Translations under genes and position numbers: made by a program
IMG/VR virus record: IMGVR_UViG_3300025594_000004
Coordinates: 1 to 30,788 of that record
Source of the DNA: a virus
Length of the DNA stretch: 30,788 bases
Reading direction: 5' to 3' (one strand)
Notes under the pieces: model-generated
The model's database searches: none
Seen by the model: only the letters and a program-made list of their open reading frames with translations
What the model was told of the DNA's origin: nothing
Part shown: one piece after another, positions 4,205-30,788 of the stretch
How the letters are laid out: every line of letters begins with the position of its first letter
Numbering within the stretch: position 1 is the first letter of the stretch

Positions 4205-6067
4205 TTAATAGAGAGGGTAACGGGCGGTCTGGATTGAGAGTGAGTCGTCGATCGATTCGAGCAGGCGCGTCTGCCGCTGGCTATCGGTCTGCTGCGTGGT
4301 AACACGGTCGAGCTGCTGCTGTTGCGCCGGGCTAAAGAGTAGATCGCGAGCCGCACCAGAGGCATTTTGGTATTGGCGGCGCAGGTCTAGCTCTTGCTCG
4401 ACATTATAGACGATCGCCTGCATCATTCCGCTCGTTGCTATGCCGCGGATGCCTAGACGATTTTCTTGCCTGTTTTCAAACATTTGCTTGTTTGTATCAC
4501 GCAATAGATAGGTCAATTCTTTCTTAGACATTCCAGAATAGTCAATGTCTGCGGCGCCACTTTGCAGCATTGCGGTGCTTCGATATACTTGCTCGGTTTC
4601 TTTTGCCACAGCCAATAATCCATTTGCTAGTGCAACAGCTCTTTCTCGGCTTACGTTGGTTTCATTCATAATGCGACCAATTAAGCTTTCAAGTTTAATT
4701 TGCTCTTCTATCTTATCAACTAGCTTGCCATCTTCTCTGACCTGTGCCTCGATCAATTCCAAGTTTAACGCTTTTAATCTGTTGGCGCTCGATCCCGCTT
4801 CGGCCGCTTCTTCGGCAGCTTTGGCTCGTGCTTTGGCTAATTCTTCAGTCGCTTTTAGATCATCAGCTGCTGCATCTTCTGCGGCTTTGTATGCGGCTTC
4901 TGCTTCAGCAGCCTCTTCTTTGGCCAATTGCACTAAAAGGTTATCAACCTGCACACGGCTTTTTTCAAGTTCAAGCATGCCTTCGGACCATTCCTTTGAT
5001 CCTTGTTGAGCCGGTGCAACTTTCGTATTGTAAATTTCAACTTCGCGCTCAAGTAAAGTGTTGATCTGCTCTTGAGTACTCATTGAAGCTAGTGCGCTTT
5101 TACGCTGAGACTCAGTTATAGCGGCATATGTTTCCGTTATGCCAGTAAGTCGCTCTGCCTGATCTGCCAGGTCTTCCATTTTTGTTACGACCTTATCAGT
5201 TTCAGTTGCGACTGATTGAGTTAGTGTGACAGTCTGCTGAGCTTGATCGTTGATTTTTTTATAAGCCTCAATGAACAGCAACTTGTCAAATATTCTTTCA
5301 AGTGTACTCAGCACTGATGTATTCTCCTCAAGCCAATTAGTAGCATTGCCAAGAGTCTCGCCAATAAAAGTTCCTAAAGATAGAAAAGCTCCAAGAGTCA
5401 CTGACACTAAACCCTTCAAGCTAGTCTTTACAGTAGTAATTTGATCGTCGAATATTTCAAATTGATTGACAGTTTCTTTAGATATTACTGCGCCAGCCTT
5501 ACGTGCAGCCAAGCGAAACTCGTCAAGCCCGGCTCTACCATCTCGCAAAGTATTAACAAGTGCAGCGCCTTCTGAGTCAAATGCCTTAAAGGCAATGCGT
5601 AGCTGCTCTGCGGGGTTTTCAGTATTCTTAATCACTTCAGCCAGATCGCCCAAAACTTGAACATTAGATCGGGTCGTTCCGTCATTATTTTTAAGCTGGA
5701 TGTTGTATTGTTCAAGCACGCCTTTAAGCTCACCGCCACCCTGGGCTGCTTCAGCTAGGCGGCGAGTGAAGCGTTGCAGGCCCATGTCAAGCGCTGTCTG
5801 GGCAACGCCGGTAAGCTCGGCGGCAAAGCGCATCTCTTGCAATAGTTCGACGCCGACCCCGAGCTTGCGCGCGGTCTTGCCAGTGTTACTGATTTCGGCA
5901 GTGAGCCGTTGGATACCAGCAATTAAGAAGCCAACAGAGAAAGCTGGCCCAATGCTTTTAAGCAACGACTTAAATTCCATCGTGCGCGAGCTGGCGCCTT
6001 TAATAGCTGAGTTGAATTTGGAGGTGTCGCCCCCCATCTTCCAGATTAGTGCAGGTCCAAGACTCAT
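4205..6067 (-). CDS. Tail tape measure protein
   Basis: At 620 residues this is the second-longest tail-module-type product and is largely helical. It starts MSLGPALIWKMGGDTSKFN, the usual opening of tape measure proteins (an MGGDTSKFNSAIKGA-type motif). A helical region follows with a TGVAQTALDMGLQRFTRR segment typical of the family. A hydrophobic stretch near 220-245 (VSVTLGAFLSLGTFIGETLG) could insert in the host membrane. A long Ala/Glu/Lys coiled coil spans about 370-480. The length predicts a rather short siphovirus tail of roughly 90 nm at about 1.5 angstroms per residue. The gene overlaps the upstream chaperone gene by four bases (ATGA). The middle of the gene is visibly more AT-rich than either end, consistent with a mosaic origin. 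Confidence 0.9.
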   Translation of the reverse strand: MSLGPALIWKMGGDTSKFNSAIKGASSRTMEFKSLLKSIGPAFSVGFLIAGIQRLTAEISNTGKTARKLGVGVELLQEMRFAAELTGVAQTALDMGLQRFTRRLAEAAQGGGELKGVLEQYNIQLKNNDGTTRSNVQVLGDLAEVIKNTENPAEQLRIAFKAFDSEGAALVNTLRDGRAGLDEFRLAARKAGAVISKETVNQFEIFDDQITTVKTSLKGLVSVTLGAFLSLGTFIGETLGNATNWLEENTSVLSTLERIFDKLLFIEAYKKINDQAQQTVTLTQSVATETDKVVTKMEDLADQAERLTGITETYAAITESQRKSALASMSTQEQINTLLEREVEIYNTKVAPAQQGSKEWSEGMLELEKSRVQVDNLLVQLAKEEAAEAEAAYKAAEDAAADDLKATEELAKARAKAAEEAAEAGSSANRLKALNLELIEAQVREDGKLVDKIEEQIKLESLIGRIMNETNVSRERAVALANGLLAVAKETEQVYRSTAMLQSGAADIDYSGMSKKELTYLLRDTNKQMFENRQENRLGIRGIATSGMMQAIVYNVEQELDLRRQYQNASGAARDLLFSPAQQQQLDRVTTQQTDSQRQTRLLESIDDSLSIQTARYPLY

Positions 6068-6714
6068 GGTGTGGCGGTTGCCTCAGTTGATTGTTTAGCG
6101 GCGGCACGTTTAGCTCGCAGACGATCTCCATTCTTGCGATCTTCTACGGCATTGAAAGCGGGCTGGCCCTCGGCGGCATTACCTTGGCCGCTGAATGTGT
6201 TAAGTAGTTGATAACTCTGAGCAATTGGCATCTCTAATATATCGCGACGACTCCAGCTGTAAAGCTTGGCAAAGCAGCTAATGATGCCGCCCAGTAGATG
6301 TGAAGCTGGAAAGCTTGAATCAGCTGGTGCGTTGTTGCTGCTGCTTGCTCCTGATTCAAGAAAGGCATCAATGATATACAGCCGAAGTGATGCCTGTAAT
6401 TGTTTTCGGTTAATCAATGCGCACAAATAGTTGCGCAGTTTATAAATTCTCCAAGCTATCCGCGAATGGCTAAAGCTAGGGCTAAGCACCCACAGTGTAC
6501 GCAATAAGGCGTCACGATCAATTACGCCGGGGTCTGGTAATAAAACAGCGTGCTGCTCGCCGCATAGCTGGTGATAGCGAATCCAAGTCAGCGGCATTAC
6601 AGGCGGCCCAACTGACGGACCAAACCAGCCTGGCTTAATCCATAGCGGCCGTGCGCACTCAATGAAAGCTTCGTCACGGTGGCGCTCTATGTTGGCGATC
6701 TCGGCTTCGGTCAT
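6064..6714 (-). CDS. Putative tail assembly chaperone
   Basis: This 216-residue protein is encoded between the tail tube gene and the tape measure gene, the position of gpG/gpGT-type chaperones. It has a tryptophan- and proline-rich N-terminus (ARPLWIKPGWFGPSVGPPVM) and a helical body. A segment near 165-180 (SWSRRDILEMPIAQSYQLL) resembles the W-x-x-x-EILEMPL pattern common in tail chaperones. The C-terminus is charged and disordered. Its stop overlaps the tape measure ATG. I found no second overlapping reading frame that would make the usual frameshifted longer form, so this phage may use a single product. The function is mainly inferred from position. Confidence 0.7.
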   Translation of the reverse strand: MTEAEIANIERHRDEAFIECARPLWIKPGWFGPSVGPPVMPLTWIRYHQLCGEQHAVLLPDPGVIDRDALLRTLWVLSPSFSHSRIAWRIYKLRNYLCALINRKQLQASLRLYIIDAFLESGASSSNNAPADSSFPASHLLGGIISCFAKLYSWSRRDILEMPIAQSYQLLNTFSGQGNAAEGQPAFNAVEDRKNGDRLRAKRAAAKQSTEATATP

Positions 6715-16630: not shown

Positions 16631-17440
16631 CTAAACCAAAAAAGATTCCTTATTTTTTTTTGTAAGCTGATCAAAGAAAATAACAAGAGGCTTCATTGAC
16701 TCTACCAGATGATGGCGATCTGCTAAGGTAATATCCTCCACCTTAAGCTTGCGAACCTGCATGTTCAATGTTTGGGCTTCCCTTAACACATGGCTCAATG
16801 CAGTAGTATCAATCTCGTTTGAAATTGTTTGTTCACTTTCCTCATCTGCTCTAGTGTCGCGTATCATCTGGCGCAGGTCTGAGATTGATACTGAATGACC
16901 TTTGGCCCGTTCGCTTGCTACCCAGTCCAGCCACCTCAATGCATTAGCTACCCTAGTCCCTTTAGTCCCCATAGTCCCCCGATCATTTAAGTTACCCCCC
17001 CCATCATTTAGGTTATCCCCCCGATCATTTAGGTTATCCCCCCCATCGCTATTGAACGCCCCGCACTCTTCAAGCGCCACCGCGTGGTAATCCCAAGACA
17101 GGTTGGGCTTTCTTTGATTTGGGGCTAGTACAGCTGAGACACGGCAGGCCATACGATGCACAGCTCGCGGGTGTGCGCTTTGCTCCATCATTAGTTTCAC
17201 CCTTTCGTTCTGTTCAATGGGTAGATCTAAAGATAATTGCGATGAGTCACTGACTTTCTTAGTTGGTCGGACCTTGGCCACATGTGCATACAGATCGCCA
17301 CGCCACCAGTTTAGGTTGCAGTTAATCGATTCAATAGTGTTATAAGCTTCTGCAAGTTGTGCATCAGTTACATCATCCGGCAGTGTTAGCACCTGCGCTT
17401 TGATATCAAATATGTTTTTATGGGCAAGGGTTGTTGTCAT
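16631..17440 (-). CDS. Putative DNA-binding protein with in-frame iteron insert (replication initiator candidate)
   Basis: This 269-residue protein starts at ATG 17440, which overlaps the upstream stop (ATGA); an in-frame start further up (17482) is less likely. The N-terminal part contains ESINCNLNWWRGDLYAHVAK. A middle part (about 105-125) reads LSWDYHAVALEEC and a later one WLDWVASERAKGHSVSISDL. Together these resemble the pattern 'hH-ava ... WL-A-egWSV-dLR' that I associate with ParB-like or replication-linked phage DNA-binding proteins. Between them lies a Gly/Asn/Asp insert made of heptads GGDNLND, RGDNLND and GGGNLND, followed by GTMGTKGTR. The insert is encoded by 21-bp and 9-10-bp DNA repeats. 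Location between regulatory and packaging genes and the lambda-O-like layout suggest, but do not prove, an initiator role. Confidence 0.75.
   Translation of the reverse strand: MTTTLAHKNIFDIKAQVLTLPDDVTDAQLAEAYNTIESINCNLNWWRGDLYAHVAKVRPTKKVSDSSQLSLDLPIEQNERVKLMMEQSAHPRAVHRMACRVSAVLAPNQRKPNLSWDYHAVALEECGAFNSDGGDNLNDRGDNLNDGGGNLNDRGTMGTKGTRVANALRWLDWVASERAKGHSVSISDLRQMIRDTRADEESEQTISNEIDTTALSHVLREAQTLNMQVRKLKVEDITLADRHHLVESMKPLVIFFDQLTKKNKESFLV
16951..16980 (-). other. Potential G-quadruplex (four G-runs)
   Basis: On the minus (coding) strand four G-runs of 5, 4, 3 and 3 are separated by loops of 5, 6 and 4 bases, each loop containing ACTA. This fits the G3+N1-7 rule. It encodes the tripeptide-repeat stretch GTMGTKGTR and is adjacent to the 21-bp iterons. 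Confidence 0.6.
16981..17043. repeat. Three 21-bp tandem iterons (fourth degenerate copy after)
   Basis: On the plus strand the core ATCATTTAGGTTATCCCC recurs with starts at 16981, 17002 and 17023, period exactly 21 bp (two helical turns). A degenerate copy (CATCGCTATTGAACGCCCC) starts at 17044. C-runs of 8, 6 and 7 separate the cores. The period is in frame with the gene and encodes heptads. Tandem spacing on one face of DNA is what iteron-binding initiators use. Confidence 0.85.
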
Positions 17441-17904
17441 TGTTTTCGCTTTGTTTGATTGGTTGTTCTGTAAGTCGCACACGCATCGTGTGACTTCATA
17501 TAATTAGAAGGCGGTAGCCCATACTTTTGAGTATAAGCCTTCACGCGTTTAGAGATTGCAGCTTTTCCTCTGGTCCCAAGTCCATACACCCTAGCGGCAT
17601 CCTTCATGCTGACCATGCCTGGTAATCCAATAGCATATCCAACAATGACAGCTGCCAATCCACTTGAAGTGCCTTTGGGTGGATGTATAACATCAAGCAG
17701 TGCGGCTCGTATCATATGGATAGCCGCGTCCCTTTTACCCTTTTCAATTTCATCGTCGATATAGTCAGCAAATCCAGCCTCTGCAAGTATTGCATCAACC
17801 TCGCTTCTCTCACCACGATCAGCATCTTGTATTGGCACAGGCATTCGGCCTTCAAATGCAAAGCCAATATGCCCGGTTGATTGTTGATAATTTGTGTTAT
17901 TCAT
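17437..17904 (-). CDS. Hypothetical HTH-containing protein
   Basis: This 155-residue protein has an acidic, helical first half (EVDAILAEAGFADYIDDEIE). The C-terminal part looks like a helix-turn-helix: MVSMKDAARVYGLGTRGKAA, then ISKRVKAYTQKYGLPPSNY. The SMKDAARxYGL segment resembles the recognition-helix region of MerR/transposase-like or phage initiator HTH domains. It ends in a basic tail (TNQTKRKQ). The gene overlaps the next one (ATGA) and starts close to the stop of the RHH gene, so the three form one unit. A role in replication control or transcription is inferred. I do not recognise a named family. Confidence 0.7.
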   Translation of the reverse strand: MNNTNYQQSTGHIGFAFEGRMPVPIQDADRGERSEVDAILAEAGFADYIDDEIEKGKRDAAIHMIRAALLDVIHPPKGTSSGLAAVIVGYAIGLPGMVSMKDAARVYGLGTRGKAAISKRVKAYTQKYGLPPSNYMKSHDACATYRTTNQTKRKQ

Positions 17905-17909
17905 AGACT

Positions 17910-17935
17910 GGGGGGGTCATTACTCCCCCCCCCCC
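17910..17935. other. G7/C11 hairpin at the end of the RHH gene
   Basis: On the plus strand G7, the loop TCATTACT and C11 form a hairpin of at least 7 G-C pairs, followed by TCTTTTATATTTT. On the plus strand this looks like an intrinsic terminator; on the minus strand no T-tract follows. It may stop antisense transcription, or mask the start of the next minus-strand gene. Confidence 0.5.
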
Positions 17936-18093
17936 TCTTTTATATTTTGCTGCTTTAAAAGTTGTAGTCCGGCTCTTAGGATCTCTGATTTGCTTTGGCC
18001 TGTTTGAATTGCTAAATGTGTCAGCAATTCAATTTGAGGTTCTGGCATCCTGAATGAAATCATTCTGCTATTCTTTTTTCTTTTCTGTTCCAT
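17920..18093 (-). CDS. Ribbon-helix-helix (Arc/CopG-like) regulator
   Basis: This 57-residue protein begins MEQKRKKNSRMISFRMPEPQ. A basic arm and a short beta strand (RMISFRM) are followed by helix A (QIELLTHLAIQTG) and helix B after SKSEI (LRAGLQLLKQQ). This is the standard order of Arc/MetJ/CopG repressors, which bind DNA as dimers of dimers with the strand in the major groove. The gene lies just after the main non-coding region, which contains repeated TGCTGKTACA sites, so autoregulation there is likely. The C-terminus (KEGGGE) is encoded by an 11-G run that could slip. It is the only clear small transcription regulator in the genome. Confidence 0.8.
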   Translation of the reverse strand: MEQKRKKNSRMISFRMPEPQIELLTHLAIQTGQSKSEILRAGLQLLKQQNIKEGGGE

Positions 18094-30628: not shown

Positions 30629-30788
30629 CATACTTCTTCAATTTCTGGGTCAGGTGGTAGTAGTGCCAGGAATGCAGCTTTGTCTACGACTTCGCATTCT
30701 TCCAGTTTAGCTTGGTCAAGCATCTCCCACAGTTCGTGGTAGATACCGCCTACGCCGACCTCTGTGTAAAGGTCACAGCAAGCACCGT
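30628..30788 (-). CDS. Small hypothetical protein after the fibre genes (C-terminal part, crosses the join)
   Basis: This is the continuation of the gene that starts at 256 on the left edge. Bases 30693-30788 repeat 1-96, and the frame continues through the join to TGA at 30628-30630. The encoded end is acidic and proline-rich (LALLPPDPEIEEV). Its stop overlaps the ATG of the 53-residue membrane protein, so fibre and lysis modules are directly coupled across the join. Confidence 0.8.
   Translation of the reverse strand, partial: GACCDLYTEVGVGGIYHELWEMLDQAKLEECEVVDKAAFLALLPPDPEIEEV
30693..30788. repeat. Terminal direct repeat, right copy
   Basis: Identical to 1-96, all 96 positions. See the left copy. 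It supports circular closure and a unique genome length of 30,692 bp. Confidence 0.95.

Follow-up and report, generated by a model that had tools for sequence, protein, structure and literature searches.

A run of 11 consecutive Gs (positions 17925 to 17935 on the minus strand; C11 on the plus strand) closes the coding frame of a small RHH/CopG-type regulator and lies in the leader of the following gene, P0002, in a marine phage. The length of this tract differs between assemblies, the tract is conserved together with P0002, and it is located in a mosaic gene junction. We regard it, with middling confidence, as a slippage-prone ribosome-binding site at this junction, which would be opened by ribosomes translating the RHH gene, and on which tract length would exert a minor effect.

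The window, i.e. the whole stretch of DNA analyzed (30,788 bases), is a marine phage record with matches to terminase, portal, head protease, tape measure, RecT, exonuclease, helicase, and primase. Since its ends (1 to 96 and 30693 to 30788) form an exact 96-bp direct repeat, and the alignment of a related element (L030) spans the end-start junction, the record is probably a complete phage genome, circularly permuted or circular.

Poly-G tract at the end of the RHH gene

The RHH gene (17920 to 18093, minus strand) encodes 57 amino acids, with KEGGGE followed by TAA at its C-terminus when the tract contains 11 Gs. The protein belongs to the RHH/CopG-type regulators: it matched Pfam RHH_1 (E-value of 1.6e-7) with 31.5 bits, above the gathering score of 20.5 bits, and also PHROG entries for transcription regulation. 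This RHH_1 match covered residues 12 to 44, and the residues encoded by the tract fall outside it. Direct reading of the minus strand confirmed the 3' end reported in the first-pass annotation (GAG GGG GGG GGG GAG TAA, with 11 Gs), and the gap to the next ATG, given there as 16 nt, was corrected to 15 nt: TAA at 17922 to 17920 and ATG at 17904 to 17902. When read by hand, the frame with 12 Gs would extend to a TAA at 17899 to 17897. ATGA coupling had also been ascribed to many genes of this phage; a 4-nt overlap was found in 6 of 35 neighboring pairs, only four of which were ATGA, and the claim therefore stood in a weaker form (the gene list and start codons behind these 35 pairs, and behind the 36 starts considered below, were chosen by the analyst).

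A G or C run of 11 appeared in one of 200 windows simulated with an order-1 Markov model and in none of 200 with an order-2 model, and this test is conservative because both models were trained on the window including the tract itself. In a 1.2-Mb MAG containing a relative, exactly one G10 match was present across the assembly, namely the homologous tract. The homopolymer was thus longer than expected by chance, a property of contingency loci.

Other G-runs were observed in related elements. In L030, a small ORF that terminates in VDGGGV-stop has G10 in its final codons (6136 to 6145), and 21 Gs are located at the contig end of L031 (10932 to 10952), together representing a second ORF that ends in poly-G; the 21 Gs were not trusted as a tract length because of their position at the contig end. 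L030 also carries G8 (4311 to 4318, minus strand) immediately ahead of the start codon (ATG) of an ORF exceeding 100 codons, and the run in L031 is interrupted by T.

Tract length in close relatives

Ten Gs were found in a contig of a gammaproteobacterial MAG (L013; the same contig, taken whole, is L033). The RHH protein of L013 terminates in EGGGSNDPPSL, with a tail of GSNDPPSL, and its TGA overlaps the ATG of P0002. This real record therefore bears out two predictions made from the G11 sequence: a C-terminus that changes with tract length, and a 10-G frame ending in an ATGA overlap. The comparison of related genomes proposed in the first-pass annotation thus yielded different lengths: 11 in the window and 10 in L013/L033.

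The alignment of the window with L033 comprised 14,388 columns with 98.8% identity and 150 mismatches. It was interrupted by two gaps, the first a single G in the tract (11 versus 10) and the second an in-frame stretch of 18 nt within the P0003 repeats (see below). The tract was thus the sole 1-nt indel in this block; two shorter and more diverged L033 blocks (700 and 323 columns with 93% and 86% identity, respectively) contained three gaps, one of 3 nt and two of 1 nt. Among runs of at least six bases in the long block, an indel was observed in 2 of 20: one is the tract, the other a G6 run bordering the 18-nt gap. All 13 A/T runs of at least six bases were free of indels. A more distant pair, L031 and L030, showed 98.0% identity in its longest block (4,491 columns), with the only gap in the homologous tract and adjoining a substitution; a shorter block (1,389 columns) had one 2-nt gap near its end. 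A second property of contingency loci, a length that differs between close relatives, was therefore seen in the window and L013/L033, and also in L031 and L030.

This difference may have arisen by slippage. Long homopolymers are prone to errors in assembly, and a uniform true length, with the G10/G11 difference produced by sequencing, PCR, or assembly of the long G-run, is a fairly unlikely account. It is consistent with the contigs of L004 and L031 ending in poly-G (14 and 21 Gs, respectively) and with L004, nearly identical to the window, breaking at this very site, where G replaces the expected A and T. On the other hand, two independent assemblies (the window and L033) read through the tract with different lengths, the L031/L030 indel is accompanied by a neighboring substitution, which is beyond what miscounting alone produces, and A/T runs of eight to nine bases were unchanged. 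As a separate matter, L004 (99.94% identity with the window over 12,425 columns) terminates inside the tract and is unreadable for its length; its 14 Gs were rejected as a third length since the last 16 bases amount to two substitutions relative to the window, at a contig end. The break of this contig at the tract is at most a hint of mixed lengths within one population.

Association of the tract with P0002

Relatives of P0002 were obtained from viral contigs (two) and genome contigs (one), and those of the RHH protein from viral contigs (six). The tract precedes P0002 in all four records holding that start, which represent two lineages: G11 in the window and G10 in L013, and the homologous G10 in L003 and G7 in L002. 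In L002 and L003, the Gs are located 5 nt before the ATG of the P0002 homologue (spacer of TACTA), and there is no RHH gene. Among the six RHH relatives, four that read on past this site (L005 to L008) lack a G-run and carry another gene downstream, L009 stops short of the tract position, and L004 ends within the tract. As judged from these alignments, the tract is associated with P0002 rather than the RHH gene. Its retention before P0002 where the RHH gene is absent points to a role in ribosome binding rather than in reading-frame switching.

The tract sits in a mosaic junction of 73 nt (17893 to 17965): RHH relatives align down to 17966, and the more distant P0002 relatives up to 17892. A scan of viral contigs for the exact junction, with fixed and variable tract length, returned no match, a search from which records close to the window were possibly excluded. 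The primase-RHH module is 96 to 98% identical in L005, L006, L008, and L009 (window boundary at 17966). Downstream of it, L005 and L006 carry a different HTH-like gene and then two further ORFs, the latter of which is longer, indicating a swap of modules at the 3' end of the RHH gene. An open frame also precedes the tract in L003 (94 amino acids from ATG, ending at TAATG) and in L002 (98 amino acids, ending elsewhere); these frames may be due to chance and were left out of the gene count. If that of L003 is a real gene, the tract ends an upstream frame there too.

Predicted ribosome-binding signals and hairpin structure

A second ATG (17920 to 17918), which the first-pass annotation had missed, overlaps the RHH stop codon (TAATG) and opens a mini-ORF of seven codons, MTPPVYE-TAA (17897 to 17920, minus strand), whose stop lies just beyond the ATG of P0002. 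The leader of this upstream ATG is more SD-like than any other in the window: the anti-SD duplex predicted for the tract, computed with an E. coli-type 16S sequence that may not be that of the host, was -11.6 kcal/mol in the window, L013, and L002, and -11.7 kcal/mol in L003, and did not depend on tract length across G7, G10, and G11. The best value among the 36 listed starts of the window was -8.4 kcal/mol, and 20 of them were weaker than -1 kcal/mol. The ATG of P0002 itself lacks any SD within 20 nt (0.7 kcal/mol); in the window and L013, the strong SD-like run faces the upstream ATG, out of frame with P0002. Stop and start codons were very close in the window (15 nt) and overlapping in L013 (4 nt), as in overlap-type coupling.

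A C7 run (17910 to 17916, minus strand), likewise missed in the first-pass annotation and equal in length in L013/L033, forms the 3' arm of a predicted 7-bp G:C hairpin with the tract: -20.2 kcal/mol (z of -2.3) in the window and -20.3 kcal/mol (z of -3.0) in L013. This hairpin is absent in L002 and L003 (z of about 0), and is without covariation support. Most bases preceding the ATG of P0002 were also predicted to be paired: the probability of being unpaired was 0.07 to 0.53 for four of the adjoining five and 0.26 to 0.30 for two bases of this ATG, and the best fold pairs AGA with the UCU adjoining the ATG. The same inverted repeat was considered as a terminator of the gene pair and rejected: the minus strand lacks a T-run, and on the plus strand (17910 to 17931), where G7/C7 followed by CCCCTCTTTT is terminator-like, the single match found equals the shuffle expectation of 1.0.

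We propose the following for this junction. The G-run would serve as SD for ribosomes and, in this lineage, a G7:C7 hairpin before the ATG of P0002 would enclose the ribosome-binding site. P0002 would then probably be translated mainly once the hairpin is opened by ribosomes that complete the RHH gene (translational coupling), either directly or through a short relay via the overlapping 7-codon ORF. With G11, RHH ribosomes would stop in the hairpin loop, and with G10, they would run through to the ATG of P0002. The gain or loss of one G would alter the C-terminal residues of the RHH protein and the precise stop position, with SD strength and hairpin unaltered. Since these two elements do not respond to one G, and since a terminating ribosome would be left at the start region under both lengths, the expected effect on P0002 is small and graded, not a switch.

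The hairpin may also be read as a split ribosome-binding site of the type of T4 genes 38 and 25, bringing the SD to approximately 5 nt (AGUCU) from the ATG of P0002 and buffering gain or loss of G, which is very unlikely. With C7 paired, the distance between the stem and ATG becomes 5 nt, matching the TACTA spacing in L002 and L003, and the spacing in T4 gene 38 is likewise reduced from 22 to 5 nt (PMC3014915). However, the pairing predicted around the start would make the site look closed, not bridged.

The proposal of the first-pass annotation was a phase-variable switch of coupling, in which slippage toggles the RHH stop (15 nt upstream, ATGA, or read-past), thereby altering expression of P0002 and P0003 and the RHH tail. 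Part of this held: both lengths are found among near-identical phages, the ATGA overlap results exactly from G10, and the tract is the one 1-nt site of length change in the long alignment with L033. The switching itself is unlikely, since both observed frames terminate within 15 nt of the P0002 start or overlap it, the SD and hairpin are the same for G10 and G11, the altered residues lie outside the RHH match, and the tract is retained where the RHH gene is absent. A broader reading as a phage contingency locus, in which the poly-G acts as ribosome-binding site, hairpin arm, and frame end of the regulator, and slippage selects between direct ATGA (G10) and relay via the 7-codon ORF (G11) to jointly tune the RHH tail and downstream expression in the phage population, appears improbable.

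P0002, P0003 and the G-rich repeats

P0002 (17437 to 17904, minus strand; 155 amino acids), whose leader contains the tract, has homologues in L002, L003, and L013. P0003 (16631 to 17440, minus strand) is linked to it by an ATGA overlap (TGA at 17439 to 17437 and ATG at 17440 to 17438), also present in the relative L012. Family searches with both proteins gave nothing above the curated cut-off, no match to P0002 was found in annotated phages by protein or by DNA of the region, and its profile matched one of 94 relatives of the MAG, which was the MAG itself. AlphaFold pLDDT values were 50.7 for P0002 and 53.1 for P0003, and the models were too poor for a fold search.

P0003 carries in-frame G-rich 21-bp repeats (16976 to 17047, minus strand; 3.4 copies), the unit of which resembles the P0002 leader; L012 contains 7.4 copies (4437 to 4591), and the 18-nt in-frame length change between the window and L033 adjoins this array. 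The repeats are possibly iteron-like or a variable linker. The tract might accordingly be a protein-binding element related to these repeats (operator- or iteron-like), with secondary effects on ribosomes, a reading to which we assign a very low probability. AAACGA precedes 2 of 52 tracts of at least four Gs in L031, one in the P0002 leader and one in a P0003 repeat. For TAAANGA, the counts are 2 of 44 (window) and 3 of 35 (L033), again confined to the leader and P0003 repeats. However, these flanking motifs were picked post hoc, none of 75 tracts was preceded in L030, whose leader run begins one base later and in which only the P0003 start is present, the structure models of P0002 and P0003 are poor, and protein binding would be hypothetical.

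Comparison with known systems

Hypermutable-tract variation is usually described in bacterial surface genes. Among titles and the openings of abstracts on phage-borne phase-variable G-tracts, none described such a tract in a phage gene pair. Should reads confirm mixed lengths, a hypermutable tract would be setting the geometry of coupling in a phage gene pair; if lengths are not mixed, it cautions that a frame-changing homopolymer can be conserved for ribosome binding, not for frame switching. In addition, the tract site is a spot of unreliable phage gene annotation and assembly.

The RHH protein resembles CopG/RHH regulators in its RHH_1 and PHROG matches, and differs in having a glycine-rich tail of variable frame. 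Phase-variable poly-G contingency tracts are known, for example, in Campylobacter jejuni (PMC7099621). The phage tract is similar in being a long G-run in or beside a coding frame with a one-base difference between close relatives; however, it occupies the final codons of the upstream gene, not the inside of the ORF that may be switched, its alternative frames end within a few residues, and it is phage-borne.

Translational coupling proceeds by termination-reinitiation or by the unfolding of a blocking structure (PMC6728339). The phage junction shares with it a stop codon that overlaps the start (TAATG and ATGA) or lies no more than 15 nt from it, an SD-like sequence in the upstream gene, and a predicted structure over the start, whereas the overlap here is determined by a homopolymer of variable length, the two stops are separated by a 7-codon ORF, and coupling is predicted. 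In T4 genes 38 and 25, whose ribosome-binding sites are split (PMC3014915), a hairpin lies between SD-like bases and the ATG, as the predicted hairpin would here, with an effective spacing of approximately 5 nt; in the phage junction, on the other hand, the SD-like run itself would form the stem, and the start region is also predicted to be paired.
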